From positions 1 through 64,000 of the forward strand of contig JAUXRN010000118.1 of NCBI GenBank assembly GCA_030681835.1: a stretch of 64,000 bases of DNA, in the 5' to 3' direction. The DNA is from Actinomycetota bacterium (lineage in GTDB: Bacteria; Actinomycetota; Actinomycetes; S36-B12). The position numbers and the translations under genes are program-made. Each line of letters starts with the position of its first letter. Position 1 is the stretch's first letter. The notes beneath the pieces are model-generated. The model saw only the letters and a program-made list of their open reading frames with translations, was not told the DNA's origin and made no database searches. Positions 1,387 to 29,906 of the stretch are shown piece after piece.

Positions 1387-1946
1387 ACGCATCACGACGC
1401 ATGTACACGGTGGCCATCGGCGCAGCGAGCGTGGTGCTCGCCGGAACCATGATCGGTGCCGTGGCGTATGCCGCCGACGGTGGACCGACCGGGAGCAACG
1501 ACAGTTCCTGGAACCAGGGGATGAACGGCGGGATGATGAACGGCGGCTGGAACACTGGCGGGATGATGAACGGCGGCTGGAACAGCGGCGGGATGTTCGG
1601 CCAAGGGTGGGATCAAGGCGCCTCCGAGGAGGCTGCCGCGGTGACGCTGGGCCAGGCCACGAAGATTGCCGGTGACTGGATTGCGGCGAACTACCCGGGC
1701 GCCACGGTCGGCGTGGGGACACCGATGCCGATCGGGTACTGGTTCGTGGCCAGCAAGGACGGCAGCACCATCGCGCACGTCATGGTCAACGACGACACCG
1801 GCCAGGTCCTGGCCACCAACGGCCGGAGCTTCGGCGGCATGATGGGCGGCGGGTGGGGCAACGCCACCAATGGCACCAATGGAGGCGGAATGATGGGTCA
1901 GGGTCAATGGGCTGCATCACCGGCCATGAGTGGTCGCAGCGCCTGA
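1383..1946 (+). CDS. Secreted Met/Gly/Asn-rich protein with PepSY-like domain
   Basis: A 187-residue exported protein. A signal peptide (residues 1-30, likely cut after AVAYA) precedes a low-complexity segment of near-identical repeats of the type GGMMNGGWN (residues 43-70). A folded part of about 70 residues follows (TLGQATKIAGDWIAANYPGA ... VMVNDDTGQVLATN), resembling the PepSY fold, and then a second Gly/Met-rich tail. Met-rich extracellular segments commonly bind Cu(I); here that is inferred from composition only. It is translationally coupled to the SHOCT gene upstream, and its stop lies 2 bases before the response-regulator start, so it is likely co-regulated with the sensor system and could buffer copper outside the membrane. 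Confidence 0.75.
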   Translation: MNASRRMYTVAIGAASVVLAGTMIGAVAYAADGGPTGSNDSSWNQGMNGGMMNGGWNTGGMMNGGWNSGGMFGQGWDQGASEEAAAVTLGQATKIAGDWIAANYPGATVGVGTPMPIGYWFVASKDGSTIAHVMVNDDTGQVLATNGRSFGGMMGGGWGNATNGTNGGGMMGQGQWAASPAMSGRSA

Positions 1947-1948
1947 CG

Positions 1949-2662
1949 ATGGCCGAAACTGGATCCCAGGACGACCCGCTGCATGTCCTCGTCATCGAAG
2001 ACGAGGACATGATCCGGCGGGTCGTCGTGGGCTATCTGGAGCAGGCAGGCTACCGGGTCACGGAGGCTGCGGAAGGTCACGCGGGCGTCGACCTGGCTCG
2101 GAGCGAATCACCGGACGTGTTGGTCCTGGACGTCGGCCTGCCGGGTATCGACGGCATCGAGGTGTGCCGGCAGGTACGGACTTTCACCGACGCGTACATC
2201 ATCATGCTGACGGCACGCAGTGACGAGGTCGACAAGCTCATCGGACTGTCCGTCGGCGCGGACGACTACCTGACCAAGCCATTCAGTCCGCGAGAGTTGG
2301 TGGCGAGGATCAAGGTCATGCTGCGTCGACCGAGAGCGCAACCGGTCGCAGGCGACGTGCAGGCACGTGTGTTCGGCGAACTCCGGGTCGATCCTGAATC
2401 CCGTGAGGTGACCCTTGCGGGTGCGCCCATCGACGTCACCCGCACGGAGTTCGACATCCTGGACGTTCTCAGCGCGAATCCGCGCCGCGTGCACAGCCGC
2501 GCCCGCCTCGTCGACGAGGTCTGGGGTCAGGGCTGGGTCGGCGACGAGAGGGTCGTGGACGTGCACGTCGCCCATATCCGCGCCAAGCTCGGCGAGGACG
2601 TCGCCGAGCCCCGGTACGTGCTGACCGTTCGTGGCGTCGGGTTCAAGATGGGTCCTGGGTGA
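1949..2662 (+). CDS. OmpR/PhoB-family response regulator (copper-type, system A)
   Basis: A 237-residue two-domain regulator. The receiver domain (residues 11-125) has the acidic pair E17/D18, phospho-acceptor D61 in VLDVGLPG, the conserved Thr of MLTAR and the Lys of LTKPFSP. The C-terminal winged helix (about 140-235) has the usual EFDILDVL and VDVHVAHIRAKL segments. ATG 1949 is preferred to the longer frame because it follows the TGA of the previous gene directly and begins at the receiver strand. The stop overlaps the kinase start (GTGA, 2659-2662). Regulators of this family bind tandem direct repeats with a period of about 11 bp, exactly the spacing of the 13 repeats in this island. Its close paralogue is at 32572-33282. 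Confidence 0.93.
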   Translation: MAETGSQDDPLHVLVIEDEDMIRRVVVGYLEQAGYRVTEAAEGHAGVDLARSESPDVLVLDVGLPGIDGIEVCRQVRTFTDAYIIMLTARSDEVDKLIGLSVGADDYLTKPFSPRELVARIKVMLRRPRAQPVAGDVQARVFGELRVDPESREVTLAGAPIDVTRTEFDILDVLSANPRRVHSRARLVDEVWGQGWVGDERVVDVHVAHIRAKLGEDVAEPRYVLTVRGVGFKMGPG

Positions 2663-3768
2663 GCGGGCCTGGCGATCCGCGCGGGCCACGGTTGCGCACG
2701 CGCATCCTGGGCGCCATGGCGCTGGTGGTCCTTGCCGGTGCCGGAACCCTTGTCATCGTCTCTCTCCTGCTCGCCCCTGCGATCTTCTACAACCACCTCC
2801 AACAGGCCGGGCTCGCCCGGAACGATGTGCTCGCCACCCACGTGGACGAGGGATTCGCGACCGCGATCGTCGTCTCGACCCTCGTGGGGGTCGGCATCGC
2901 CACGGCCGTTGCCGCCGCGATGGCGACACTCGTGTCACGGCGCATCAGCCGGCCCGTCGCGATCGCGGCCTCGGCGACCACCCGGCTCGCGAGCGGCGAC
3001 TACTCGGCCAGGGTCCCGTCACCTCACATGGGTCCGGAGCTCGATTCCCTGGCGGACGGCGTCAACTCCCTGGCCGAACGGCTCGAAGCCACCGAGGGAG
3101 CACGCATCCGGCTCATGGCCGACCTGGCCCACGAGCTCCGCACGCCGCTGGCCGCCATCGATGCCACCGTCGAAGCGATCACTGACGGCGTGCTGGCAGC
3201 GGACGAGCAGACCCTGGCGACCTTGACTGCAAACGCCCAGCGGCTTTCGCGCTTGGTTGACGACGTTGCCTCCGTTTCCCGTGCCGAGGAGCGCTCCTTC
3301 CGGCTGACCATCTCCGAGGTGGACCTGGCCGAGCTTGCCCGACTGGCGATTGCCAGCACCTCGGCTCTCGTGACGGCCAAGGGAGTCGACGTCACTGCAC
3401 CGCCGGGGCTCGGGCCGTTGGTGCGCGTCGACCGCGATCGCATCCTCGAAGTGATCGGCCAGCTGCTCGCCAACGCCCTCAACGCGTGCTCGGCCGGGGA
3501 CCGCATCACGGTAGACGTGTCGTCATCCGGCTCGGACGCCCTGCTCACGGTCAGCGATACCGGGACCGGCTTCGCGCCCGACGATGCCGATCGACTGTTC
3601 CAGCGATTCTTCCGTGCGAGCCCGACGCATTCACCGGGCGCGGGCAGCGGCATCGGGCTCACCATCGCGAGGTCCCTTACCGAGGCGCACGGCGGAACCC
3701 TCACGGCGGCAAGCGCAGGACCGGGCACAGGAGCCACTTTCACGCTGACGCTTCCTAAGCCCGCCTGA
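2659..3768 (+). CDS. Two-component sensor histidine kinase (system A)
   Basis: A 369-residue membrane kinase. Two transmembrane helices (about 17-42 and 70-95) flank a short extracytoplasmic loop of about 30 residues. HAMP follows, then a dimerisation/phosphotransfer domain with H158 in DLAHELRTPLA, and an HATPase domain with N, G1 (DTGTGF) and G2 (GSGIGL) boxes. The loop carries HLQQAG and THVDEGFA; the paralogous kinase at 33279-34382 has HLVHAG and HAEEAFA at matching places. These His and acidic positions are the best candidates for metal sensing, which is inference. It overlaps the response-regulator stop by GTGA, so the pair is coupled. Confidence 0.93.
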   Translation: MSGPGDPRGPRLRTRILGAMALVVLAGAGTLVIVSLLLAPAIFYNHLQQAGLARNDVLATHVDEGFATAIVVSTLVGVGIATAVAAAMATLVSRRISRPVAIAASATTRLASGDYSARVPSPHMGPELDSLADGVNSLAERLEATEGARIRLMADLAHELRTPLAAIDATVEAITDGVLAADEQTLATLTANAQRLSRLVDDVASVSRAEERSFRLTISEVDLAELARLAIASTSALVTAKGVDVTAPPGLGPLVRVDRDRILEVIGQLLANALNACSAGDRITVDVSSSGSDALLTVSDTGTGFAPDDADRLFQRFFRASPTHSPGAGSGIGLTIARSLTEAHGGTLTAASAGPGTGATFTLTLPKPA

Positions 3769-3809
3769 GTCGGGCACTGACGTCGTCGGATGACGTCGGG
3801 ACCTGCACG

Positions 3810-4121
3810 TCAAGCCCTGCCTGCCCTTTCCAGCGCGGCAACGAGCTGCGCGGTCGTTGGTGAGCCCTGGAGCCCCTCGGGAGTGCGGTATAGGCGGCAC
3901 GACAGGCCCACCTGAAGTGACGGGTCCTCGAATGGGTCGCGGCCGTCAATGAGGATCGTCGGCGATCCCCGGAAGCCCGCGGCCTCCGCCTTGGCTCGCG
4001 TGTCAATCACCTCGTAGCTCACCGCCACCGGGACACCGACCTGCGCCGCCGCCGCGTGCAGGCACTCATCCAGGACGTGCCAACTTGGGCAGTCCCCGAA
4101 GTACTGGATCGTCGCTTCCAT
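3810..4121 (-). CDS. Small thioredoxin-like protein (CPSWHVLDEC type)
   Basis: About 103 residues. The N-terminus MEATIQYFGDCPSWHVLDEC has a Cys pair separated by eight residues instead of CxxC. This resembles the thioredoxin-like proteins often found with metal or organomercury genes. The middle part (GFRGSPTILIDGRDPF) is the cis-Pro region of the thioredoxin fold. ATG 4121 is chosen over the longer frame because the domain begins there and the upstream gene ends at 4135. It is the last gene of a four-gene minus-strand unit with a redoxin, a CcdA-like protein and a second thioredoxin-like protein, so it probably takes part in thiol exchange across the membrane. It converges on the sensor kinase gene. 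Confidence 0.75.
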   Translation of the reverse strand: MEATIQYFGDCPSWHVLDECLHAAAAQVGVPVAVSYEVIDTRAKAEAAGFRGSPTILIDGRDPFEDPSLQVGLSCRLYRTPEGLQGSPTTAQLVAALERAGRA

Positions 4122-4134
4122 GCGGGCCAGGCCC

Positions 4135-4761
4135 TCAGCCGGCCAGCGCACCCACGGCCTGGGCCAGCAGGTCATCGGGATTGAGCCACATTCCGGGATA
4201 CTCCCCATACCAACGCTGCATTCCGGTGGCGTCGATCACGACGAAGCTGTGCCCAGGCAGGTTCGAGTGCATCCCCTTCCCAATGGTCCCGTAGGCGGCG
4301 GACACGGCGCCGTCATCGAGAAGGAATGGCGTGCGCACATCGTTGAGAGCCATGTCAGCGACGATCTGCTCGCGCGTGTTCATCACGATGGGCAGGACCA
4401 CCAGGTTCGCGGCGGCGAACTGGCTGCTGGCCTTCTCGATCTCCGCCATCTGGACCAGGCATGACTGGCATCCGGCGCCTTCGCTGAAGTAGAGCACGAC
4501 GTTCTGCCCACGGAAGTCGCTGAGGCTGCGCGTCTCACCACTCGTGTCCGTGAGGGTGAAGGGGGGTGCCGCGCGCATCGTGGTCGACTCGTTGGGTCGA
4601 CTCGTCGCGAGGCCCACCGCGACTGCGGCAGCGATGAGCACCACTCCGGCGCCCCAGGCGAACCGAGCCGTGCGGCGGCTCTTCCGGGACTTCTGCTCGT
4701 CGCTCGCCTCGAGTTCGCGGATCGACCGCCCGCGCTGCCTGGTCGCACGCCCACTGGTCAC
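4135..4761 (-). CDS. Membrane-anchored peroxiredoxin-like (AhpC/TSA) protein
   Basis: A 208-residue protein: a basic cytoplasmic N-terminus, one membrane anchor (about residues 33-54), then an extracytoplasmic redoxin domain. PPFTLTDTSGETRSLSDFRG is the typical entry into the AhpC/TSA fold. YFSEGAGCQSCLVQM holds a CxxC pair instead of the single peroxidatic Cys. The later cis-Pro region appears as LPGHSFVVID. Its start overlaps the end of the CcdA-like gene (4758-4761), which suggests that CcdA keeps it reduced. The role could be disulfide reduction or peroxide removal outside the cell, and the sequence does not decide between them. Confidence 0.82.
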   Translation of the reverse strand: MTSGRATRQRGRSIRELEASDEQKSRKSRRTARFAWGAGVVLIAAAVAVGLATSRPNESTTMRAAPPFTLTDTSGETRSLSDFRGQNVVLYFSEGAGCQSCLVQMAEIEKASSQFAAANLVVLPIVMNTREQIVADMALNDVRTPFLLDDGAVSAAYGTIGKGMHSNLPGHSFVVIDATGMQRWYGEYPGMWLNPDDLLAQAVGALAG

Positions 4762-5741
4762 TTGCCTACCTCCTTGTTGCTGGTTGACCCGGATCCGGAC
4801 GGGTGGCAGTGTCCTGGTCCGGCTTCGGCGCCTGGCGGATTCTGATCAGGGACGTCCGGCCCGGACGTCTGCCGCCGGTCCGGTGCTCGTCGACGAAGCG
4901 TGGCCATCACGAACACTCCCGCAAGCAGGACCAGGCCCAATCCGAGGAAGGCCTCGGGCACAGGGGCCAGCCACGCCTGGATCTGGGTGAACGCCACTGC
5001 GATGCCGGTGCCGACGGCCACCTGGAAGCCGGGGCCAGTCGTCATCGTTCCGGTGTCGGCGAGGTACAAGACGAAGGCGCCCATGATCGCGAAGGCGGCG
5101 GCTACGCCGATGTTGATCGTGTTGGTGTGCAGCGTGCGTCCGCGGGGCAGGTGGAGCGTCACCGGGCGCGCCTGCAGGAAGCGGCGCTCGCCGAGCCGGA
5201 ACCGGTCCCACAGCAGGGCCATCACCAGGAGCGGGAAGACCATGCCGAAGACGTAGGCCAGCCCGAGTACCAGGCCCCCGACGGCACTCCCGGACAGGGC
5301 GGAAAGGGTCATGACGCCGACCAGCACAGGGGCGCAGCACGCGGACGCGACACCCGAGAAGACGCCGAGGGCGAAGAAGCTGGCGGAGTCTCCACCGCGG
5401 GTATCGGGCGCGCGCAGGAAGGATGGCAGGCTCCACATGCGGCCGCTGAGCGACCACGCAGCGAGCAGCAGCATGAGGATTCCTCCGGCCGCGTACAGCC
5501 ACTGGTGGTACTGGGCGATTGCTGCCGACAACAGGCTCATCCCGAGGGTAAGGGGGATCAGCACCATGGCCAATCCAGCCGCGAAGACGAACGTCAGCGG
5601 AAGGAGGCGCCAGCGACGGTTCTTGACGGCCACCGCAAGGTAGCTCGGGGCCAGGAAGACGATGCAGCAGGGGGCGAACAGGGCGACGCCGCCCGCGAGG
5701 AATGCCGCAAGCACGGAGCCCGTTGTCAGCAGGTCGGTCAT
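4758..5741 (-). CDS. CcdA/DsbD-like thiol transporter with PCC-type cysteines
   Basis: A 327-residue protein with 6-7 predicted membrane helices, of the CcdA/DsbD transmembrane family. These proteins move reducing equivalents from cytoplasmic thioredoxin to extracytoplasmic redox proteins. The two membrane cysteine sites are APCCIVFLAP (near residue 25) and SACCAPVLVG (near 135), so each site holds a Cys-Cys pair where usual CcdA proteins have a single Cys. A Pro/Gly-rich C-terminal tail follows the last helix. It overlaps both neighbours by four bases, giving the tight order thioredoxin-CcdA-redoxin. A second, more ordinary CcdA lies at 7041-7808. Confidence 0.88.
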   Translation of the reverse strand: MTDLLTTGSVLAAFLAGGVALFAPCCIVFLAPSYLAVAVKNRRWRLLPLTFVFAAGLAMVLIPLTLGMSLLSAAIAQYHQWLYAAGGILMLLLAAWSLSGRMWSLPSFLRAPDTRGGDSASFFALGVFSGVASACCAPVLVGVMTLSALSGSAVGGLVLGLAYVFGMVFPLLVMALLWDRFRLGERRFLQARPVTLHLPRGRTLHTNTINIGVAAAFAIMGAFVLYLADTGTMTTGPGFQVAVGTGIAVAFTQIQAWLAPVPEAFLGLGLVLLAGVFVMATLRRRAPDRRQTSGPDVPDQNPPGAEAGPGHCHPSGSGSTSNKEVGK

Positions 5742-6058
5742 GGCGTGCTCGGCTGACGGACGGCCGCCTTCTCGGCGAGCAGCTTGCGCAGACGACCGCG
5801 AGGCAGTCGCCCCGAGCTGACATATTCACCATCGAGGAGCACCAATGGGCTCATCGACGCACCGAACTGCTGGATCAGGCCCGAGCCCTCGGGGCTCGTG
5901 AAGCGCACCCGCGTGACGTGGAGGGGGTGTTCCCGCGCGATCTCGGCGATCGCGGATTCGGCATCTGCACAGAAGTGACAGCCGGATGAAGCGACAATGG
6001 TCACCTCGGGCAGGAGGGTCGCTGGCCCACCGTGCTCAAGCGCCGTTTCAGTGTTCAT
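5738..6058 (-). CDS. Glutaredoxin/thioredoxin-like protein with CHFC motif
   Basis: A 106-residue protein starting at ATG 6058. After a short leader, TIVASSGCHFCADAESAI contains a CxxC (C-H-F-C) active site of glutaredoxin type. FTSPEGSGLIQQFGASMSPLVLLDG corresponds to the strand with the cis-Pro region, and the C-terminal helix is basic. No signal peptide is visible, so it is probably cytoplasmic and could feed electrons to the CcdA-like protein encoded immediately downstream (ATGA overlap). It is the first gene of the unit and has a CopR-like direct repeat 46-62 bases upstream, the same distance as at the acetyltransferase. Confidence 0.85.
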   Translation of the reverse strand: MNTETALEHGGPATLLPEVTIVASSGCHFCADAESAIAEIAREHPLHVTRVRFTSPEGSGLIQQFGASMSPLVLLDGEYVSSGRLPRGRLRKLLAEKAAVRQPSTP

Positions 6059-6103
6059 GCTGCGAGTGTCTGACCCACTAGAGCAAGGATCTGAAAGTTC
6101 GGA

Positions 6104-6120
6104 TCAAGGTTTCGTCAAGG
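6104..6120 (-). promoter_or_regulatory. CopR-like tandem operator, site 2
   Basis: The minus strand reads CCTTGACGAAACCTTGATC, with two TTGA half-sites 11 bp apart. It ends 46 bases before ATG 6058 of the thioredoxin-CcdA-redoxin unit. The promoter-proximal half-site could double as the -35 element, with TCTAGT farther down as a weak -10. Confidence 0.7.
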
Positions 6121-6194
6121 TGCCTGCCGCAAGCCCCGGCGTCGGCTTCCTGTGGGACTTTCGACCTGCCGGGACACTGTCCTTGTGCCTGCTG

Positions 6195-6416
6195 TCAACG
6201 ATTGGTGCTGTCGCGGTCATCGACAGGGTGGTCCGACCAGGAGTCCGTGCCGTGCCCGCCCATCATCACCATCATCACGATCATCATCAGCGGGCACGCG
6301 AGGATGAACGCAAAGGGAAGAACTGTCGCCAGCGGCAGGCCCGCCCAGACCAGCACTACGACGACGAGGGCGCCAACGGCTGCCGTGCCGGCTACGTGCT
6401 TCATGGACATGTTCAT
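6195..6416 (-). CDS. Met-rich small membrane protein (73 aa), paralogue 1
   Basis: A 73-residue protein starting at ATG 6416, with the Shine-Dalgarno sequence GGAGAGG just upstream; the longer open frame above it is not coding. It has two predicted membrane helices. The second ends in a Met cluster (CPLMMIVMMVMMGGHG), followed by a His/Asp-rich tail. The product at 17768-17989 is a clear paralogue, with the same MNMS start, the shared block AFILACPLMM and an equal length. It resembles the small DUF2933-type membrane proteins found near copper genes. The Met and His residues suggest metal contact, but no function is established. A CopR-like repeat lies 84-100 bases upstream. Confidence 0.75.
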   Translation of the reverse strand: MNMSMKHVAGTAAVGALVVVVLVWAGLPLATVLPFAFILACPLMMIVMMVMMGGHGTDSWSDHPVDDRDSTNR

Positions 6417-6499
6417 GATGAGCCTCTCCAACGTGGGCGCTGAGTGGCGCCATGCGACAACCATCTGCCCGGATTTCTGCATTTCCCCGACAGCCCCGG

Positions 6500-6516
6500 T
6501 CAAGGTTTGCTCAAGG
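6500..6516 (-). promoter_or_regulatory. CopR-like tandem operator, site 3
   Basis: The minus strand reads CCTTGAGCAAACCTTGACC, half-sites 11 bp apart. It is placed between the Met-rich small membrane protein gene (start 6416, minus) and the DUF2752 gene (start 6576, plus). Its orientation fits the minus-strand gene, but either could be controlled. Confidence 0.7.
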
Positions 6517-6575
6517 AGTGGGCCACGTCCCGCCGCACGCTTGGAGGATGCGCTTGATCGCGGCACGCTTATGCC

Positions 6576-7016
6576 GTGACCCAGCCATCCATCGCCCTGG
6601 CCGTCACCCGGTCGGATGGCCACCGCACCCTCACGTGGCTGGCACTCGGGGCGCTCGCGGTGGCCCTCGGCCTCGCCGTGCTGGGGCTCCCCGCAGTCGA
6701 CCTCCACGGGCCGCTGCACCGCCTGGGAATCATGGATCCCTTCTGCGGCGGCACCCGCGCAGTCCGCTACACGATGCTGGGTCAGTTTGGGCTCGCCTGG
6801 ACCTACAACCCGCTTGGCATCGCGGCCGTCGGAGCGGCCGGCCTCCTCGCCGTACGTGCCTCCGTGGGAGCGGCCTTCCACCGGTGGATCAACCTCCACG
6901 TCACGTGGACCCCGCGCCTACGGTGGCTGCTCGTCGGTCTGGTGGTCGTGGTCCTGATGGTCCTCGAGGTTCGGCAGCAGGCGATCGCTTCGTTGCTCAT
7001 GCAAGGCGCTCCCTAG
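6576..7016 (+). CDS. DUF2752 family membrane protein
   Basis: A 146-residue protein with three predicted membrane helices (about 18-42, 65-90, 115-135). LHGPLHRLGIMDPFCGGTRA resembles the Cys-Pro-x-CGxTR signature of DUF2752 proteins, except that the first Cys is replaced and only one Cys remains. GTG 6576 is the only sensible start; the Shine-Dalgarno sequence is weak. It converges on the CcdA gene ending at 7041. The family has no assigned biochemical role. Its placement beside operator site 3 suggests, without proving, that it belongs to the island regulon. Confidence 0.75.
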   Translation: MTQPSIALAVTRSDGHRTLTWLALGALAVALGLAVLGLPAVDLHGPLHRLGIMDPFCGGTRAVRYTMLGQFGLAWTYNPLGIAAVGAAGLLAVRASVGAAFHRWINLHVTWTPRLRWLLVGLVVVVLMVLEVRQQAIASLLMQGAP

Positions 7017-7040
7017 AGCCGGGCATGGCCGAGCTGCCTG

Positions 7041-7808
7041 TCATAGGACCGTCTCGAATCCGCCGATCTGCACGCGCATCCAGATGCTCAGTTCCGTCCA
7101 CGCACCCGTGACGAGCAGCAGGCCGATGGCAACCATCGCCACTCCGCTGAGCCGGAGGATGAGCGGTGTCCGGCGGCGAGCCCAGGAGACCGCGGAGACG
7201 GTGGAGTCGAAAGCCAGGCCGACCACCATGAACGGCACGCCCAGGCCGATGCAGTACGCGACGGACAGGAGGGCTCCGCGGGCGGCGCTGGCCTCGGTGA
7301 ACGCGAGGGTCTGCACGACGGCGAGTACCGGCCCGATGCAGGGCGCCCAGCCCAGGCCGAACACGACGCCGAGCACCGGTGCTCCCCACAAGCCTCGGGA
7401 CGGCCGATGGGCCGACCGCCACTCGCGATTGAGTGCGGGTAGGTCGAGCAGGTAGGCGACTCCCAGGGCCACTACCAGCACGCCGAGCACCCGGGTCAGG
7501 GGTTCCTGGTAGGCGAGGAGCTGGGACCCCAGGCCGCCGAACACCAGGCCGAAGGAGACGAATACGCCCGTGAACCCGGCCACGAAGAGGGCCGTTCCGG
7601 CGATGATGACCCGGCGACGATGCCACGGAGCGATACGCACGCCGGAGCGACGCTGGTTCGCCTGCTGGCTCGCGGACATGCCGGTGACGTAGGCGACATA
7701 CCCCGGCGCTAGCGGCAGCACGCACGGGCTGAGGAACGAGACCAGGCCCGCGGCGAGTGCCAGCGGAATGGCTAGCAGCAGAGATCCGGACTGGACGACG
7801 TCGCCCAC
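7041..7808 (-). CDS. CcdA-type cytochrome c biogenesis/thiol transporter
   Basis: A 255-residue protein with six predicted helices. The two characteristic sites of CcdA are present: SFLSPCVLPLAPGY near residue 25 and LGWAPCIGPVLA near 155. CcdA passes electrons inward to outward through these cysteines. GTG 7808 is chosen because it lies 5 bases after the stop of the TlpA gene and opens the first helix; the longer frame upstream is antisense noise. Order and spacing (Lgt-like, TlpA lipoprotein, CcdA) show a single minus-strand operon in which CcdA would reduce the TlpA partner. Confidence 0.9.
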   Translation of the reverse strand: MGDVVQSGSLLLAIPLALAAGLVSFLSPCVLPLAPGYVAYVTGMSASQQANQRRSGVRIAPWHRRRVIIAGTALFVAGFTGVFVSFGLVFGGLGSQLLAYQEPLTRVLGVLVVALGVAYLLDLPALNREWRSAHRPSRGLWGAPVLGVVFGLGWAPCIGPVLAVVQTLAFTEASAARGALLSVAYCIGLGVPFMVVGLAFDSTVSAVSWARRRTPLILRLSGVAMVAIGLLLVTGAWTELSIWMRVQIGGFETVL

Positions 7809-7813
7809 TCGGG

Positions 7814-8467
7814 TCAGTCGTCCATGGCGTCGGTGGAGTCGGTTGTGGAGCCGGCCGACTCGCTCGCTCGGTCCTCGTCCAGCAGGGCGGTGAGCACGGA
7901 CCGCAGGGTGGCCTCTGATGCCCGGCCCAGGATGCGTGCCGCCACTCGTCCGTCGCGGTCCACGACCACGGTGGACGGGATGGCATTGGGGTTGAGGTCG
8001 CCAGCGAAGAGCAGCTGGAGCCGGCCGTCGCGGTCGACGAGGCTCGGGTAGGAGATGGCGTACCGGCGCTCGAAAGCGAGCGCAGGTACGTCGCTGTCCC
8101 GGGTGTTGAGCCCGACGAAGGCGACGCCTTGGCCCGCGAACTCCTCGGACACGCTCTTCAGGGCCGGGGCCTCGGCGCGGCACGGCGCGCACCATGAGGC
8201 CCAGACATTGAGGACAACAACCTGGCCCCGGTGCTCGGCCAGCGACCACCTGCCCCCATCAAGGGTCGTTCCAGCCACGTCGGGTGCCGGGTTGCGCTCG
8301 GCCGGGGAAAGGACGGTGATGCTGCCGTCGACCGCCTCGTAGCTCCCTGACGCCGGGCCCGGAGATCCGGCCGCGGTGCCGGCACATCCCGCCAGAAGGG
8401 CGCCCGCCGCGAGCGCGGCGACCGCCCACCGTATGCCGCCGGTCGCAGCGGCGATGACGGCCGTCAC
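7814..8467 (-). CDS. TlpA-like thiol-disulfide oxidoreductase lipoprotein
   Basis: About 217 residues. GTG 8467 overlaps the stop of the Lgt-like gene (GTGA). The N-terminus is a lipoprotein signal peptide with the lipobox LLAGC near residues 26-30. The mature part is a TlpA/ResA thioredoxin domain: APDVAGTTLDGGRWSL entry, active site WCAPC (about residue 97) and cis-Pro loop IPSTVVVDRDGRV. Such proteins reduce apocytochromes or copper-site cysteines outside the membrane. Its electron donor is probably the CcdA encoded directly downstream. It is one of at least four predicted lipoproteins in the copper island. Confidence 0.9.
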   Translation of the reverse strand: MTAVIAAATGGIRWAVAALAAGALLAGCAGTAAGSPGPASGSYEAVDGSITVLSPAERNPAPDVAGTTLDGGRWSLAEHRGQVVVLNVWASWCAPCRAEAPALKSVSEEFAGQGVAFVGLNTRDSDVPALAFERRYAISYPSLVDRDGRLQLLFAGDLNPNAIPSTVVVDRDGRVAARILGRASEATLRSVLTALLDEDRASESAGSTTDSTDAMDD

Positions 8468-9750
8468 AGGTGTGTTGACCCCACGGCTAGTGCGCCAACG
8501 GCGATGGCGAGGACCAGGCACCCCACCGCCAAGGCCATCATCCGGCCACGTCGCGAGTGCGGGCTGCTGCGGAGCGGGAACAGCACCTGCCGGAGGACCA
8601 CATACGCAGCGAACACAGCAGCGAACAGCGCTCCCGCGGGATGGGGCAGGCCTCGCCATGCGAGGACGAACGCCACGATGCCGATCGCGGCGGCGGCGGC
8701 GCCCTCCATCATCTGGACGGGGATCCGCTTGATCCCGATTTCCCGATCGGTCGACCACAGCGCGAACCGGTGGGTGGAGGGCCTGCCTGCACAGCAGCCC
8801 GTCTTCCAGCATCCCGCCCGCCCGAACATCACGCCGAACATCACCCCCGGCGCGGCGAGGTCGAGCAACGTCCCCGTCGGGACGTTCAGCAGCATGGACC
8901 CCGCCGCGACCGTCGCGAAGGCCCCGATCACGAAGCCCTGGATGCACATGCCGCCTGTCGACAGCAAACTCGTCTTGGAGTCCGATTGCAGGACGAAGTA
9001 CGCCTTTGCCCCCGCCAACCCGACGATGCACGCCACCAACGCCACCACCGCCAGGCCTGCGACGGACATGCCGTGCCGGCTGGCGAGTACCAGCAAGGAC
9101 GCCACGCCCGCTACAGCGCCAAGGGCCACGAGGGCTGGCCAGGAGCCCATCGACATCCCAGGGGCGAGCTCGCGCACCACGGGCAGGAACGCCGTCCTGC
9201 CGATCGCGGACGCTGCGGACGGGCGGGGGGCCGCAGTCGGAAGAACCGGCGCCGCCGTCACATGCCAGGCCCCAGGCGCGACGTCCGCGAATCGCGCGGT
9301 GTACGCCACCCGCCCGGCACCCGGCAGTACGCCGTGGACAGTACGGCTGGCCACGAACTCGGCCGGCTCCTCGTCGGCCTCGACCGGTGTTCGTGTGCCG
9401 CTGAAGCGCACCTCGAGGTCGTGGGGCTCGCCGTCGGCCGGGGCCTCGAACCAGTACGTCACGCCGAGCCCCTGGGGCTCCAGCTCGTCCAGCGCATCGC
9501 AGTTGACGCTCGTGACCTCGACTCGACCGGTCGGCCCGCCGGCCACCACGTCCACTGAAACGGCTGGCGTGGGCGCCTGGGGAAGGACGGCAGCCGAGCG
9601 AGTAGGTGGCAGATGACCGAGGAGCAGGGCGCCCGGCGAACGGGACGCGGGTGTTGCAGGCGGGATCCCGGTGCGGGACGAGGGGCTGGCTGGCGGCCTG
9701 CTCGGCCGCCCTCGGCCAGGCTTCCGCTTGGCCCGTGATTGCTTGGACAT
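8464..9750 (-). CDS. Lgt-like (prolipoprotein diacylglyceryl transferase family) protein with extra N-terminal domain
   Basis: A 428-residue protein. ATG 9750 is supported by AGGAG immediately upstream. Residues 1-60 are basic and Pro-rich. Residues about 65-190 form a beta-rich domain with no clear relative. From about residue 200 there are six to seven helices with the Lgt-like core STGGMCIQGFVIGA and MFGRAGCWKTGCCAGRPS (about 305-325). This keeps the GR pair of Lgt but carries a Cys-rich GCxxxGCC variant. True Lgt attaches diacylglycerol to the lipobox Cys; this divergent branch may differ. It heads the operon with the TlpA lipoprotein and CcdA, with operator site 4 upstream. Substrate and activity are not established. 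Confidence 0.72.
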   Translation of the reverse strand: MSKQSRAKRKPGRGRPSRPPASPSSRTGIPPATPASRSPGALLLGHLPPTRSAAVLPQAPTPAVSVDVVAGGPTGRVEVTSVNCDALDELEPQGLGVTYWFEAPADGEPHDLEVRFSGTRTPVEADEEPAEFVASRTVHGVLPGAGRVAYTARFADVAPGAWHVTAAPVLPTAAPRPSAASAIGRTAFLPVVRELAPGMSMGSWPALVALGAVAGVASLLVLASRHGMSVAGLAVVALVACIVGLAGAKAYFVLQSDSKTSLLSTGGMCIQGFVIGAFATVAAGSMLLNVPTGTLLDLAAPGVMFGVMFGRAGCWKTGCCAGRPSTHRFALWSTDREIGIKRIPVQMMEGAAAAAIGIVAFVLAWRGLPHPAGALFAAVFAAYVVLRQVLFPLRSSPHSRRGRMMALAVGCLVLAIAVGALAVGSTHL

Positions 9751-10144: not shown

Positions 10145-10279
10145 ATGAACGTACCGGCCATGTGGAGCATCAAGCAGGCGACGCTGCAAGGTCGCTCCTC
10201 CTCGGAGGGGCGAGGTGATCGGGGCGCGGCAAGGCGTGAGGACCCCCGCTCACCCGGCCTTCGACGGGGACGCAGATGA
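10145..10279 (+). CDS. Possible 44-residue leader ORF of the copper ATPase operon
   Basis: A short frame MNVPAMWSIKQATL... of 44 codons, rich in Arg/Ser/Gly, starting at ATG 10145 with GAGGTGG about 5 bases upstream. Its TGA overlaps the next ATG (ATGA, 10276-10279), just as that gene overlaps the ATPase gene (10542-10545). Three successive 4-base overlaps make translational coupling likely and are the main argument that it is real. No domain is recognised. It could be a leader whose translation opens the downstream start. The alternative is an untranslated leader with a chance frame. Confidence 0.4.
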   Translation: MNVPAMWSIKQATLQGRSSSEGRGDRGAARREDPRSPGLRRGRR

Positions 10280-10545
10280 GCAGCACGGTAACTCTCCGCG
10301 TCGGAGGCCTGACGTGCGCGTTGAGCATCGGCGACATCATCGAACGCGTGCACCTGGTTCCCGGCGTCGTGCAGGTGGCCGTTGACCGTGTCGAGCATGG
10401 CCGCTCCTGGGTCACGGTCACCGGCGAGCCGGGGGTCAGCGTGACCCGGCTTTCGAGAGAGCTGTCGCGTGGAGGGTTCCACATTGCAGGCACAGACGGG
10501 CATCTAGCAGGCCCGGACGATAACCACCACCGGAGAGCACGATGA
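10276..10545 (+). CDS. HMA-like protein with degenerate metal site (TCALS)
   Basis: An 89-residue protein. Residues 4-75 follow the heavy-metal-associated fold ([39 protein letters not shown] ... [13 protein letters not shown], quoted in part). The binding loop, however, reads GLTCALS: the second Cys of the expected CxxC is Ser. It may bind Cu(I) weakly with one Cys or be a scaffold partner of the ATPase, which itself lacks an HMA domain. A basic His/Arg tail closes it. Coupled by ATGA to the ATPase gene. An intact CxxC chaperone exists at 29685-29906. Confidence 0.72.
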
Positions 10546-13500
10546 CCTTCACGAATCTGTTCGTCCTGCTGGGAGCCGTTGCCCTCACTGGGTTCCTGGG
10601 CTGGTACTTCTTCGGCCCCAAGAAGAGCCGTAGTGCCGAGCTCCAGGGCGGCGTGCAGGCGATCACGGTGACGGTCAAGGGCGGATACAGCCCCGACCTG
10701 ATCGAGGTTGTCCGTGGCGTGCCCGTCCGGCTCATGTTCGACCGCCAGGAGTCCGGGGACTGCTCGTCACGGTTGGTGATGGCTGATTTCAAGGTGAACC
10801 AGTCGCTACCGGCGTTCGAGATGACCACCGTGGACATCCTCCCGGAGGAGCTCGGCGAATTCGACTTCGCGTGCGGCATGAACATGCTTCGCGGACGGCT
10901 CAGGGTGGTCGAGGACGGGTCCCGACTAGGGACGGGCGCGATCCAGTTCCAGGATGGAGCCGCTTCCCGCGCCTCAAACGACGCGGGGCCAGTGGCTCGC
11001 CTCACCGTCCGGGGCGGGTACCGGCCCGGCCGGATGCTGGTGCCCAGCGGGGTCCCCGTCAGGCTTGAGGTCGACCGTCAAGAGGGATCCGCCTGCTCGG
11101 AGCGCCTGCTGATCCCCGCCCTGGGCATCGAGGTGGTCCTTGACTCATTCGCGACCACGGTCATCGACCTGCCGCCGCTGGCCGCCGGCGACTACGACTT
11201 CAGCTGTGGGATGGGGATGCTGCATGGCACTCTCTCCGCCGGCGGCGCCGCCGAGACCCCTGTCGAGCGTGCGCATGGCGCGGGGGGCTCGTTGCCGGGC
11301 GCGGGCGAGAACGCGGGCGACGCCGAGGCGGCCGAGAGGCGCATGGAGGTCGCCGACCTGCAGCGTCGGGTCGTCGTCGGGGCGATCCTGACCGCGCCCG
11401 TCCTGTTCGCCGTCATGTTCACCGAGTTCTTCGGCGTGAGCTGGATGCCGGAGCTCCTCCTCAACCGATGGCTCCAGATGGCGCTGATCACGCCCGTGAT
11501 GTTCTACACGGGCTGGCCGATCCACCGCACGGGGTGGCTGGCACTGTCGCACCGTACGGCGGACATGAATTCGCTGATCACCTTGGGTACCTTCGCAGCC
11601 TTCGGCTTCAGCGCCGTGGTGACGGCGGTCCCCGACCTGCTGCCCACCGACGTGCAGGAGGTCTACTTCGAGGCCGTTGGCGTCATCATCACGCTGATCC
11701 TCCTCGGCCGCCTTCTCGAGACGAAGGCGAAGGCAGGAACAGGTGAGGCGATTCGCTCGCTCATCGGCCTGCAAGCCCGCACCGCGCGTGTCATGGGGTC
11801 GACCGGTGAGCGGGAGATCCCCATCGAGGACGTGGTCCCCGGAGATGTCATCGTCGTCCGCCCCGGCGAGAAGCTGCCGGTCGATGGAGTCGTCGTGTGG
11901 GGCCAGTCGTCGGTCGATGAATCGATGGTGACTGGTGAGCCCATTCCGGCCACGAAGTCCATCGGTGACGTCGTGATCGGCGCGACGATCAATGCCACCG
12001 GATCGTTCCGGTACGAAGCCACCCGCGTGGGTGCCGACACGATGCTGGCGCAGATCATCGCCCTGGTGCGCCAGGCCCAGGGCTCGAAGGCGCCCATCCA
12101 GCGCCTGGTCGACACCGTCTCGGGGTATTTCGTACCGGCCGTCATGATCATCGCCATCTGGACCTTCGTGGTGTGGCAGATGGTCGGGCCGCCGCCGGCA
12201 TTCATCTTCGCGCTCGTCGCGGCCGTCTCGGTGCTGATCATCGCCTGCCCATGCGCCCTGGGCCTGGCGACGCCGTTGTCCATCACCGTGGGCACGGGCA
12301 AGGGAGCCACCTCCGGCATCCTGATCCGTTCGGCCGAATCGCTGGAGACGGCCCACAAGCTCGACACGGTCGTGCTCGACAAGACCGGCACCGTCACGCG
12401 GGGGACGCCGGCGCTCACCGACGTGGCCCCGGCAGGCCACTACGACGAGCAGGACCTGTTACGCCTCGTCGCCTCGGCGGAGCAGATGTCAGAGCACCCT
12501 TTGGCAACTGCCATCGCCTCGGGCGCGCGTGAACGAGGGATCACCCTCGACGAGCCGACCTCTTTTGCGTCGGTCACGGGTGAAGGGGTCCGCGCAACCG
12601 TCGCCGGCCACGCCGTGCTGGTAGGGAATCGGCGACTGCTCGTCAACGCCGGCATCGACCCCACGGTCCTGGCCGAGGACTTCGAGCGACTCGCCGGCGA
12701 TGGCAAGACACCGATCCTGGTCGCGATCGACGGCACGCCCGCAGGGGTCGTCGGCGTCGCGGACACGATCAAGGACGGATCGGGCGCGGCGATCGCCGCC
12801 CTGCGTCAGCGCGGGATCAACGTCGTGATGATGACGGGCGACAACCGAGCCACCGCGGCAGCGATTGCCCGCCAGGTCGGCATCACGCGAGTGGTCGCCG
12901 AGGTACTGCCCGAGCACAAGGCGGCAGAGGTCCGGCGGCTGCAGGCCGAGGGACGTGTCGTCGGGATGGTGGGCGACGGGATCAACGACGCCCCGGCCCT
13001 CGCGCAGTCCGACGTCGGGTCGGCGATCGGCACGGGCACTGACGTGGCGATCGAATCGTCGGACATCACGCTCATCTCCGGTGCCCTCGGCGGTCTGGTG
13101 ACGGCGATCGACCTGTCCCGGGCCACCATGCGCAACATCCGCCAGAATCTCGTCTTCGCCTTCCTCTACAACGGGCTCGGTATCCCCATCGCGGCCGGTG
13201 CCCTGTACCCGGCATTCGGACTGCGACTCAGCCCGGTGATCGCTGCCGCGGCCATGGCCCTTTCATCATTGTCCGTCGTCGCGAACTCCAACCGGCTCCG
13301 CCGATTCACGCCTGCCGTGCTCGGTGACGACCCAATCGCGCCGGGGATCGACCCGCTGGTGGAAATCGGGGAACGCACGGAAGCGGTTGGGGTGGAACTA
13401 GCAGGGACTGACCGGCAATCGGCAGTCGACCCGGTCTGCGGCATGCCAGTGGACCCGCGGAATGCAGCCGAGACCGCGCAGCACGGCGGGGTCGTCTACT

Positions 13501-13568
13501 ACTTCTGCTCGCTGTCGTGTCGCGACTCCTTCACGGGGGAGCCCGCCGCCTACGCTTCGGTGGGATGA
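10542..13568 (+). CDS. copA: Copper-exporting P1B ATPase with two N-terminal cupredoxin domains and C-terminal YHS domain
   Basis: A 1008-residue protein. Residues 1-28 are a membrane anchor. Residues about 38-128 and 145-232 are two cupredoxin_1-like repeats, each with an early Cys (SGDCSS, GSACSE) and a late Cys-Met-Met site (ACGMNML, SCGMGML). From about 270 there is a standard Cu(I) ATPase: eight helices, TGEP loop, transport site CPC (residues 569-571), phosphorylated DKTGT (about 613), SEHP, and the hinge GDGINDAP. Residues about 960-1006 are a YHS metal-binding domain ([17 protein letters not shown]). It has no HMA domain; the coupled 89-residue protein upstream may replace it. The cupredoxin repeats may take up or hand over copper; their side of the membrane is not certain, because a KK follows the first helix. 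Confidence 0.93.
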
Positions 13569-13573
13569 CCCGC

Positions 13574-14083
13574 TCACCTGGGCGGGAATCCCCCGGCAGC
13601 CATCGCGTCCGGCTGGTTGGGTCGCACGGCGCATGCGGCTTGGTTCCGCAGGCGAGCCCGCACCGCAACCGCCATCAAGGCAAGTGAACCGACCGCCAAG
13701 AAGGGCTGGAACGGCGCGAACCACGACATGGCACCCGAGGCGCCCAGGGCCACAATGACCAGCTTGTTGCACACCGGGCAGCCGACCGCGAAGAACGCCA
13801 GGGCGGCGCCAGCGATGCCCAGCCGTGACGCCCGCTCGACAGTTTCATCGCCTGGCGAGTCCCCTTGGCGGACGTACGTGCCGACGAGCAAGGCCCCGAG
13901 GATCCCGGTCATCACCAAAACGGGGTAGGACCACCAGGTGACCGCCATGCTGCGCGTGAAGTACGGGTTAGGAATGATGTCGGTGGGGATCGCCACCAGC
14001 ACGGCGATGGCGATCCCGCCGAACGCGCCCACGATCCATCGGCGCGCAGACCAGGTCCGCACCGCCGCCCACTCCACGCTCAT
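13574..14083 (-). CDS. Membrane protein with CPVC thiol motif
   Basis: A 169-residue protein with four to five predicted helices. AVGCPVCNKLVIVALGASGA (about residues 101-120) places a CxxC at a helix edge. Similar actinobacterial membrane proteins carry this conserved CPVCNKL stretch, but I know of no established function. ATG 14083 is preceded by a TANNNT -10 (TAGGCT) only 6 bases upstream, so a leaderless transcript is likely. It ends 5 bases from the end of the convergent copper ATPase gene. The Cys pair suggests a thiol-redox or metal-binding role matching the neighbourhood. Confidence 0.7.
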   Translation of the reverse strand: MSVEWAAVRTWSARRWIVGAFGGIAIAVLVAIPTDIIPNPYFTRSMAVTWWSYPVLVMTGILGALLVGTYVRQGDSPGDETVERASRLGIAGAALAFFAVGCPVCNKLVIVALGASGAMSWFAPFQPFLAVGSLALMAVAVRARLRNQAACAVRPNQPDAMAAGGFPPR

Positions 14084-24643: not shown

Positions 24644-26328
24644 CGAAACCCTCAAGGCGCTGGGCCGGCGCCACCCTCGGTGCGGTGGCCGGGCTCGTGC
24701 TCCTGCTCGCCAGTGCTTACGTCGCGGGCGCCTGGTGGATGAGCACCCGCATGCCGCCCGGCACCATCGTCGCGGGCATCGATGTCGGAGGCATGGATAC
24801 GGGGCAGGCGTCGGCCGCGGTTGCCTCATGGGCGTCCGCGCGTGAGCAGGAACCGATCGAACTGGCCGCGCAGAGCCTTCTCGATCCCCTCGTGCCGCGG
24901 GACGCCGGCCTGGGCATCAATGTCGACGCCACCATGGGACTGGTACCAAGGTTCGGCTGGGCACCGCCCGACCTGGCGGCCTGGCTCATGGCCCGGATCC
25001 ACGTCGAGCCCGTCGTGACCATCGACGAAGCTCGCCTGGACGCCAGCATGCGGGAGCTCGCCGGCGCCGTGGCGCGGCCCCCCGTGGAGCCGGTGCTCCG
25101 ATTCGAGGGGACCGCTCCGGTCCTCGTCCCGGGTAGTGACGGCCAGGCGCTGGACACTGGCTTGCTGCGTGACGGCGTGCTCGCTGCGTTCCCGACAGCG
25201 GAGGTGCCCGTCGAGCTTTCGTTGCGACCTCAGGCGCCGTCGGTCCCGGAGGACGAGGCCCTGCGCGCATGGCAGGGTGCCGACACGCTGATCACGGAAC
25301 GACTGACGATCACTGCCGGTGAGGCGCAGGCACGGGTGACGCGCAGGCAGATCGCCCGCACCGTGTCGTTCCGCACCGCCAACGGCACCATCAGCCCTGT
25401 CGTCGACGGCGCACGGCTGAAGGCCGAGCTCGTGGCCCGCCACCCTGATCTGCAGGTGCCCGGCCGCGACGCGACCTTCCGCATCCGCGCCGGGGTCCCC
25501 CTGGTGGTGGAAGGCTCGCCCGGGACCACGCTCGACGAGGCAGCGCTGGCGGCCGCGGTCGAGGCAGCCTTCGTCAACTACCCGTCGTCGGGCAGCGTCA
25601 CCGTCCCCCTAGCAGCAATCGAGCCGGACCTCACGGCCGACGAGGCACGAGCCCTGGGGATCACCGATCGCCTGTCCCGGTTCACCCAGGCCTTCCCGTA
25701 TGCCCCCTACCGCGTGCAGAACATCGGTCGCGCTGCGGACTTCATCGACGGGACCATCCTCCTGCCGGGGCAAACGTTCTCCTTGAACGAGACGATCAAG
25801 GAGCGGACCCGGGAGAACGGCTACACCGAGGGCATCGTGATCGGGCCCGGTGGGGTGTTCCGCGAGGACCTCGGCGGCGGGGTGTCGGCCGCCGCCACGA
25901 CGACTTGGACGGCGGCCTTCTTCGCCGGGATGGAGCGGGTCGAGACGCGCGCCCACTCCATCTACATCTCCCGGTACCAGCCCGGGCTGGAGGCGACCGT
26001 GGCGTGGGGCGTATTCGACATGAGGTTCCGTAACGACTCCCCGTACGCGGTCCTGATCAAGGCCCGGACCACCAACACGAGCATGACCGTGTCCTTCTGG
26101 GGAACGCGCATCTACGACGAGATCAAGGCAGAGTTCGGGCCGCGCACAGACATCGTGCCGTTCGACACCATCACGGACACCAGCGCGCAATGCCTCGGCC
26201 AGAGCGGCGTCAGCGGATTCGACATCACGGTGGATCGCGTCTTCTACGTCGCCGGCGCGGAGGTCAGGCGCGAACCCATCCACACGGAGTACCGCCCGGC
26301 ACCCCGGGTCGTCTGCGGCAGCGCCTAG
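24640..26328 (+). CDS. VanW family protein with PG-binding-like domain
   Basis: A 562-residue exported protein. One N-terminal anchor (about 10-32) precedes two copies of the putative peptidoglycan-binding 4 module (about 40-330). A VanW domain follows (about 350-520): FPYAPYRVQNIGRAADFIDG, GQTFSLNETI, GGGVSAAATT and YISRYQPGLEATV. VanW proteins occur beside glycopeptide resistance and in many actinobacterial envelopes; the catalytic role is uncertain. Coupled to the Lnt-like gene by ATGA. Its TAG stop shares a CTAG palindrome with the TAG of the convergent P-type ATPase gene (26325-26328). Confidence 0.88.
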   Translation: MTKPSRRWAGATLGAVAGLVLLLASAYVAGAWWMSTRMPPGTIVAGIDVGGMDTGQASAAVASWASAREQEPIELAAQSLLDPLVPRDAGLGINVDATMGLVPRFGWAPPDLAAWLMARIHVEPVVTIDEARLDASMRELAGAVARPPVEPVLRFEGTAPVLVPGSDGQALDTGLLRDGVLAAFPTAEVPVELSLRPQAPSVPEDEALRAWQGADTLITERLTITAGEAQARVTRRQIARTVSFRTANGTISPVVDGARLKAELVARHPDLQVPGRDATFRIRAGVPLVVEGSPGTTLDEAALAAAVEAAFVNYPSSGSVTVPLAAIEPDLTADEARALGITDRLSRFTQAFPYAPYRVQNIGRAADFIDGTILLPGQTFSLNETIKERTRENGYTEGIVIGPGGVFREDLGGGVSAAATTTWTAAFFAGMERVETRAHSIYISRYQPGLEATVAWGVFDMRFRNDSPYAVLIKARTTNTSMTVSFWGTRIYDEIKAEFGPRTDIVPFDTITDTSAQCLGQSGVSGFDITVDRVFYVAGAEVRREPIHTEYRPAPRVVCGSA

Positions 26329-29688: not shown

Positions 29689-29906
29689 GGCCGCACCACC
29701 TCGTACCCCGCTTCGTCCACGGCAGCGTCCAGTTCGGTGGACTGGAGCGCGTCGAGGCTGGAGACGGTGACGCGCGACTCGGCGCCGGGAGCAAGGTCGA
29801 CCGACACCGAGACGACCCCCGGCAGTGCGGATATCGCCTCCGACACGGCGGACACGCAATGGCCGCACGTCATGCCGGAAACCGCGACGTTGGTCGTGAT
29901 AGTCAT
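29685..29906 (-). CDS. HMA-domain copper chaperone (CopZ-like)
   Basis: A 73-residue single-domain protein: TTNVAVSGMTCGHCVSAV gives the canonical GMTCxxC site (C14, C17), and the rest follows the ferredoxin-like HMA fold (SALPGVVSVSVDL ... AVDEAGYEVV). CopZ-type proteins carry Cu(I) to P1B ATPases. Start ATG 29906. Its stop overlaps the propeller lipoprotein start, and the P-type ATPase is the next gene down. Because that ATPase has an HMA domain without CxxC, the chaperone may be its main cytoplasmic copper donor. Confidence 0.92.
   Translation of the reverse strand: MTITTNVAVSGMTCGHCVSAVSEAISALPGVVSVSVDLAPGAESRVTVSSLDALQSTELDAAVDEAGYEVVRP

Follow-up and report, generated by a model that had tools for sequence, protein, structure and literature searches.

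How does copper reach a copper ATPase that carries cupredoxins in place of an HMA domain? The question is raised by a pump gene in the window, by which the whole 64-kb stretch of DNA that was analysed is meant, and it touches a long dispute over the role of terminal metal-binding domains, as donors of copper or solely as regulators of the pump. The pneumococcal CupA/CopA system has so far been treated as an unusual exception, and in a 2024 paper the cupredoxin-like metal-binding domain is still cited as unusual, from a pneumococcal ATPase (PMC11970713). As judged from its sequence, the pump described here is a natural CupA-CopA fusion, and with its duplicated domain it is a real, little-described form of a known copper-resistance system; a survey of genomes shows that the CupA-CopA fusion recurs in Actinomycetota and also outside this phylum. 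With chaperone and pump in a single chain, point mutants of one gene make the dispute testable.

Reading Frame and Domain Architecture

The open reading frame at 10542-13568 (+) runs without interruption from ATG to TGA and encodes 1008 amino acids, in which Pfam recognizes two stretches of Cupredoxin_1 (99 bits), an E1-E2_ATPase domain, a HAD hydrolase and a YHS domain. The features of the gene are as follows:

10542..13568, + strand: CupA-CopA fusion, as read from sequence (TM anchor, two CupA-type cupredoxins, P1B-1 Cu ATPase, YHS)
10548..10613, + strand: N-terminal TM anchor helix, residues 3-24, then GPKKSR (AF2 pLDDT ~90, hydrophobicity)
10653..10910, + strand: CupA-type cupredoxin 1, residues 38-123 (phmmer to CupA, E 1.4e-21)
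10761-10763, 10872-10874, 10878-10880 and 10884-10886, + strand: predicted ligands C74, C111, M113 and M115 of cupredoxin 1
10989..11240, + strand: CupA-type cupredoxin 2, residues 150-233 (phmmer to CupA, E 3.2e-14)
11094-11096, 11205-11207, 11211-11213 and 11217-11219, + strand: predicted ligands C185, C222, M224 and M226 of cupredoxin 2
11310..13316, + strand: P1B-1 ATPase core, residues 257-925 (TIGR01511, 3rfu alignment, conservation)
13422..13565, + strand: C-terminal YHS domain, residues 961-1008, DPVCGM...YYFCSxxC (Pfam YHS, E 2.9e-9)

The first-pass annotation had described two cupredoxin repeats with an early cysteine and a late CGMxM motif, and both are present (C74 and C111-G-M113-N-M115; C185 and C222-G-M224-G-M226). 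Its outline of a CPC-type ATPase after the repeats, with a YHS domain at the end and no HMA domain, likewise agrees with the CPC motif at 569-571, the Pfam YHS match and the lack of a Pfam HMA match in the pump, which thus does not have the N-terminal HMA with CxxC of an HMA-type CopA. Two features had been overlooked, namely the TM helix ahead of cupredoxin 1 and the CupA type of the repeats, which had been taken as cupredoxins generally. In the full-length AF2 model (pLDDT 83), a helix (residues 3-24) is followed by two groups of strands (29-123 and 151-233), which match cupredoxin barrels, by the ATPase and, at the C-terminus, by a small YHS fold; disorder (pLDDT <50) is seen in the linkers 127-148 and 236-257, and the placement of the cupredoxins relative to the ATPase is of low confidence. 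All nine cysteines of the pump (74, 111, 185, 222, 569, 571, 966, 989, and 993) lie in predicted metal sites.

As cupA and copA are separate neighbours in streptococci (loci L108-L118), it could be supposed that the frame joins two genes through an assembly or frameshift error. However, the in-frame fusion occurs at some 60 loci, isolate genomes and plasmids included, the layout is identical in a genus mate at 97% identity, and the ATPase differences from that genus mate are mostly synonymous (few changes in total). The probability of such an error is hence vanishingly small, and a gene-fusion artefact was rejected on the grounds that the same fusion is found across many genomes. The single frame assumed in the first-pass annotation is a genuine one, found in dozens of genomes including the genus mate, and chaperone and pump are fused within it, rather than the chaperone being a separate protein that docks on CopA.

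The ATPase Core and the YHS Tail

The NCBIfam model TIGR01511 of the copper P1B family matches the core with 595.6 bits (cut-off 397), and all P1B-1 signatures are present and conserved among the homologues, namely CPC 569-571 (12246-12254, M4), DKTGT 613-617, YN 876-877 (M5), and MxxSS 905-909 (M6). The copper-entry residues M342, E377, and D524 are conserved, with M342 aligning to M148 of LpCopA (3rfu alignment). By its signatures the pump can be assigned to the P1B-1 (CopA-type) Cu(I) ATPases, and outward transport of Cu(I) is predicted. The YHS domain scores 37.2 bits in Pfam (cut-off 30.3), contains the CGM...FCxxC core with C966, C989, and C993, and is found in the same position in many relatives.

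The Repeats Are Matched to Pneumococcal CupA

When each repeat was searched alone against PDB sequences, Streptococcus pneumoniae CupA (2mry/4f2e) was the best match, followed by the metal-binding domain of CopA (4f2f). As the ATPase accounted for the VIA-align results with the full model, which were uninformative on the cupredoxins, the N-terminus was folded separately, and Foldseek with this AF2 model (residues 1-235) returned 4f2e and 4f2f at the top, with TM-scores on the target of 0.95 and 0.96. The Cu(I) ligands of CupA are given as C74, C111, M113, and M115 (PMC5646241), and repeat 1 has its ligands at these very residue numbers. The four-ligand set C...CxMxM is complete in both repeats; that of domain 1 is invariant in the aligned pumps (47/47), and that of domain 2 is kept in seven of eight tandem proteins, the exception being Cellulomonas humilata. 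Both repeats are, by sequence match and modelled fold, specifically CupA-type. No second Cupredoxin_1 protein was detected in the genome at the search threshold, and hence no stand-alone CupA.

The anchor helix, the cupredoxin fold and the binuclear Cu(I) ligands, numbered as in domain 1, are thus shared with S. pneumoniae CupA (4f2e, 2mry), which is a small separate protein, whereas its equivalent in the fused gene is the N-terminus of the pump. S. pneumoniae CopA also has a cupredoxin (4f2f) instead of an HMA domain ahead of a P1B-1 ATPase, but only one, with neither anchor helix nor YHS domain. The actinobacterial CopA proteins with a single cupredoxin (Cellulomonas, Sanguibacter, Bifidobacterium, and Acidimicrobiia) share the anchor, the CupA domain, the ATPase and often the C-terminal YHS domain with the tandem pump, and differ in the second metal-binding domain, which is absent, of HMA type or decayed.

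The Anchor Helix and Membrane Orientation

The hydrophobic N-terminal stretch aligns with that of streptococcal CupA and, like it, has the features of a membrane anchor. After it, the fused pumps have the motif [WF]FFGPKK or one very similar, the stand-alone CupA of streptococci has FFKKP, and on this sequence evidence the helix with FFGPKK is CupA's membrane anchor.

Cupredoxins are mostly extracytoplasmic, and a hydrophobic N-terminal helix looks like a signal anchor, so that the domains could instead lie outside and, plastocyanin-like, accept exported copper or handle it extracellularly. Against this, lysine and arginine are commoner after the helix than before it in 41 of 45 homologues (p = 6e-6, which is generous, as the sequences are related), a bias that by the positive-inside rule favours a cytosolic position of the cupredoxins. 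Moreover, the first helix of the pump must begin in the cytosol, as in all P1B ATPases, and, if the ATPase keeps its usual topology, the cupredoxins would have to be cytosolic. The homologous CupA and the SpCopA domain are also described as acting intracellularly, and the ligands are the cysteines and methionines of CupA, without the histidines of a blue copper site. An outward orientation is therefore very improbable, and a plastocyanin-like extracytoplasmic role is disfavoured by the charge bias together with the CupA ligands.

Distribution and Origin of the Fused Pumps

A contig scan of genomes with a four-sequence profile yielded 80 loci. Among these and further loci from genome searches, the ATPase-fused architectures comprise TM-Cup-ATPase (18), TM-Cup-ATPase-YHS (17), TM-Cup-HMA-ATPase (16) and the same with YHS (6), tandem cupredoxins with or without YHS (6, the genus mate being one) and streptococcal forms with no anchor (12), YHS being undercounted because some loci are incomplete. 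Strong matches of CupA type in long frames were obtained in 10 of 297 genomes of a class sample and in 10 of 396 genomes of a phylum sample; CupA-CopA fusions thus recur in Actinomycetota, in ~3% of sampled genomes. In the family of the source genome the domain pair was found in only two of 85 genomes, both of this genus and both tandem, and tandem loci beyond the genus are few (L054, L088, L089, and L131). To the question of how frequent this architecture is, which had been raised with the first-pass annotation, the answer is therefore that the fusions are recurrent and the tandem form is rare. Fused pumps are also plasmid-borne in Streptomyces, Cellulomonas and others, and that on a Streptomyces mirabilis plasmid is tandem as well. 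The plasmid-borne pumps, and the single-cupredoxin CopA proteins where annotation was seen, are annotated only as "heavy metal translocating P-type ATPase." In the open-access literature searched, no description of CupA-CopA fusions in Actinomycetota was found, which is weak evidence of absence, and the viral contigs searched gave ATPase matches only.

None of the fused pumps examined lacks domain 1, and the second metal-binding domain is absent, an HMA domain, a cupredoxin or decayed. When 103 domains were placed in a tree, the second domains of the actinobacterial pumps clustered together (97/85), separate from the first domains as well as from the domain of pneumococcal CopA. Drawn from 82 columns with long branches, the tree is suggestive of one duplication as the origin of domain 2, followed by loss or replacement, and it separates, weakly, cupredoxin 2 from the SpCopA domain, as whose direct relative it had been considered.

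Two kinds of relatives combine further domains. At locus L084 (4884-7943), in a Heimdallarchaeota MAG, one chain contains an anchor and a pair of CupA cupredoxins together with an HMA-like domain and a Cu ATPase, which could reflect transfer or misbinning. At L057, L063, L071, and other loci of Acidimicrobiia, a CupA domain is followed by an HMA domain with GMSCASC in one pump, so that cupredoxin and ferredoxin-fold copper domains occur in a single chain.

The Upstream CopZ-Like Gene

Directly upstream of the pump lies a small gene of the family of CopZ/HMA chaperones, the stop of which overlaps the pump start (ATGA):

10276..10545, + strand: small HMA-like (CopZ-type) gene (Pfam HMA, E 5.6e-5)

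Its Pfam HMA score of 23.9 bits is just below the cut-off of 24.8. The altered CxxC motif that had been noticed earlier is confirmed: the frame is open, and the site reads CALS, with the second cysteine replaced by serine, so that, unlike CopZ, it has no CxxC, and the pump, unlike these chaperones, has no HMA domain. In the genus mate (locus L045, upstream of 4881), CALC is intact and the frame is broken by a 7-bp tandem duplication. Two species of the genus hence carry differently damaged copies of one CopZ-like gene, with CxxC changed to CxxS in one and a duplication frameshift in the other.

Elsewhere the equivalent gene is intact. At locus L133 it retains CxxC and the same 4-bp overlap, in Streptomyces NBC_00637 it stands in the order csoR-copZ-cupAcopA-RR-HK with lgt close by, and intact upstream HMA genes also occur in Sanguibacter, Cellulomonas and others. 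A fused gene on a Streptomyces plasmid lies in csoR-HMA-cupAcopA-RR-HK, with lgt nearby. Given the intact equivalents and the differing damage in the two species, the gene appears to be the CopZ gene of the csoR-copZ-cupAcopA layout, decaying in this genus, and not a designed variant.

A Proposed Route of Copper

We consider it likely, at a probability of roughly 0.7, that the gene encodes a Cu(I)-exporting P1B-1 ATPase with a fused, membrane-anchored chaperone of CupA type, the tethered CupA capturing cytosolic Cu(I) and handing it to the pump. The extra N-terminal helix would lie in the membrane with the N-terminus outside, which would keep the two cupredoxins close to the membrane surface on the cytosolic side. 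Cupredoxin 1, as CupA itself, would catch Cu(I) at the bis-Cys site C74/C111 and pass it to the weaker C74/M113/M115 site, from which the ion, directly or via cupredoxin 2, would move to the entry residue M342 and to CPC for ATP-driven export. Cupredoxin 2 would replace the N-terminal metal-binding domain of CopA, probably as a relay, a buffer or a copper-sensing brake, and the YHS domain may be an accessory tail in the cytosol that binds or senses metal. Tethering could make a separate CupA unnecessary, and perhaps CopZ too. Of this picture, the identity of the domains, their ligands, the fusion, the charge signal for topology, the conservation and the gene neighbourhood are observed, and from them we infer copper binding, the direction of transfer and the roles of cupredoxin 2 and YHS.

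Fu et al. reportedly found in 2013 that copper binding by the pneumococcal CopA domain is not needed for copper resistance. A domain 1 that is constant with its full ligands, next to a variable second domain, agrees with the reported need for CupA in pneumococcal copper resistance (PMC7558416); in the same organism, CopZ tethered to CupA's anchor was unable to replace CupA (PMC7558416). A role in the proposed CopZ to AfCopA handover route has been assigned to the entry methionine (PMC9433437), and with M342 and CPC conserved, handover to the core could take that route.

Alternatively, the cupredoxins and YHS could be copper sensors that keep the pump inhibited at low copper and release it once they have bound copper, with the ion handed to the entry methionine directly by CopZ or glutathione. 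The N-terminal metal-binding domains of LpCopA have been argued to regulate rather than deliver, as a sensor and autoinhibitory module (PMC11970713), the conserved M342/E377/D524 would permit direct delivery by another donor, and the genome has other CopZ genes. However, the CupA anchor and all ligands of the binuclear site are retained in domain 1 with no exceptions, which is chaperone-like, its pneumococcal homologue is a separate chaperone required for resistance (PMC7558416), and in this genus the neighbouring CopZ gene has suffered damage. We regard the purely sensory role as unlikely and retain the fused chaperone. A more specific version, in which anchored CupA, second cupredoxin and core form a covalent two-step relay, soluble CopZ is dispensable and the adjacent copZ is decaying in consequence, is put forward tentatively, as a possibility on the doubtful side; if true, it would make the protein a self-sufficient one-chain chaperone-pump.

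Of the changed route of copper delivery proposed in the first-pass annotation, one part stands, in that cupredoxins have taken over the place of the HMA/CopZ-type donor module, but the route is already known from pneumococcal CupA/CopA (4f2e, 4f2f; PMC7558416, PMC5646241). What is new relative to that system, as far as sequence goes, is a duplicated chaperone joined covalently to the pump.

Neighbouring and Other Copper Genes

A further csoR-copZ-copA set lies on contig C108 of the genome, so that copper homeostasis does not depend on the fused-pump locus alone. Within the window, a second copper-type P1B ATPase (26325-28697, - strand) has CPD in place of CPC (ITCPDALGLATP), which suggests altered metal coordination, and an N-terminal HMA fold without its CxxC region; it is clustered with a BNR protein, an intact CopZ (about 29700-29888), DUF305 and a multicopper oxidase. 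Beside the pump, at 1853-9750, a redox/metal island contains an OmpR-type response regulator and a histidine kinase, two TlpA/redoxin proteins, two membrane proteins of CcdA/DsbD type, DUF2933, DUF2752 and an Lgt-like protein; DUF2933 accompanies copA and cupredoxin genes on copper islands of Alteromonas (PMC8478169). Directly downstream of the pump and convergent with it, a gene at 13574-14083 (- strand) encodes a membrane protein that contains a GCPVCNK motif and is weakly similar to MerT (E 0.03).
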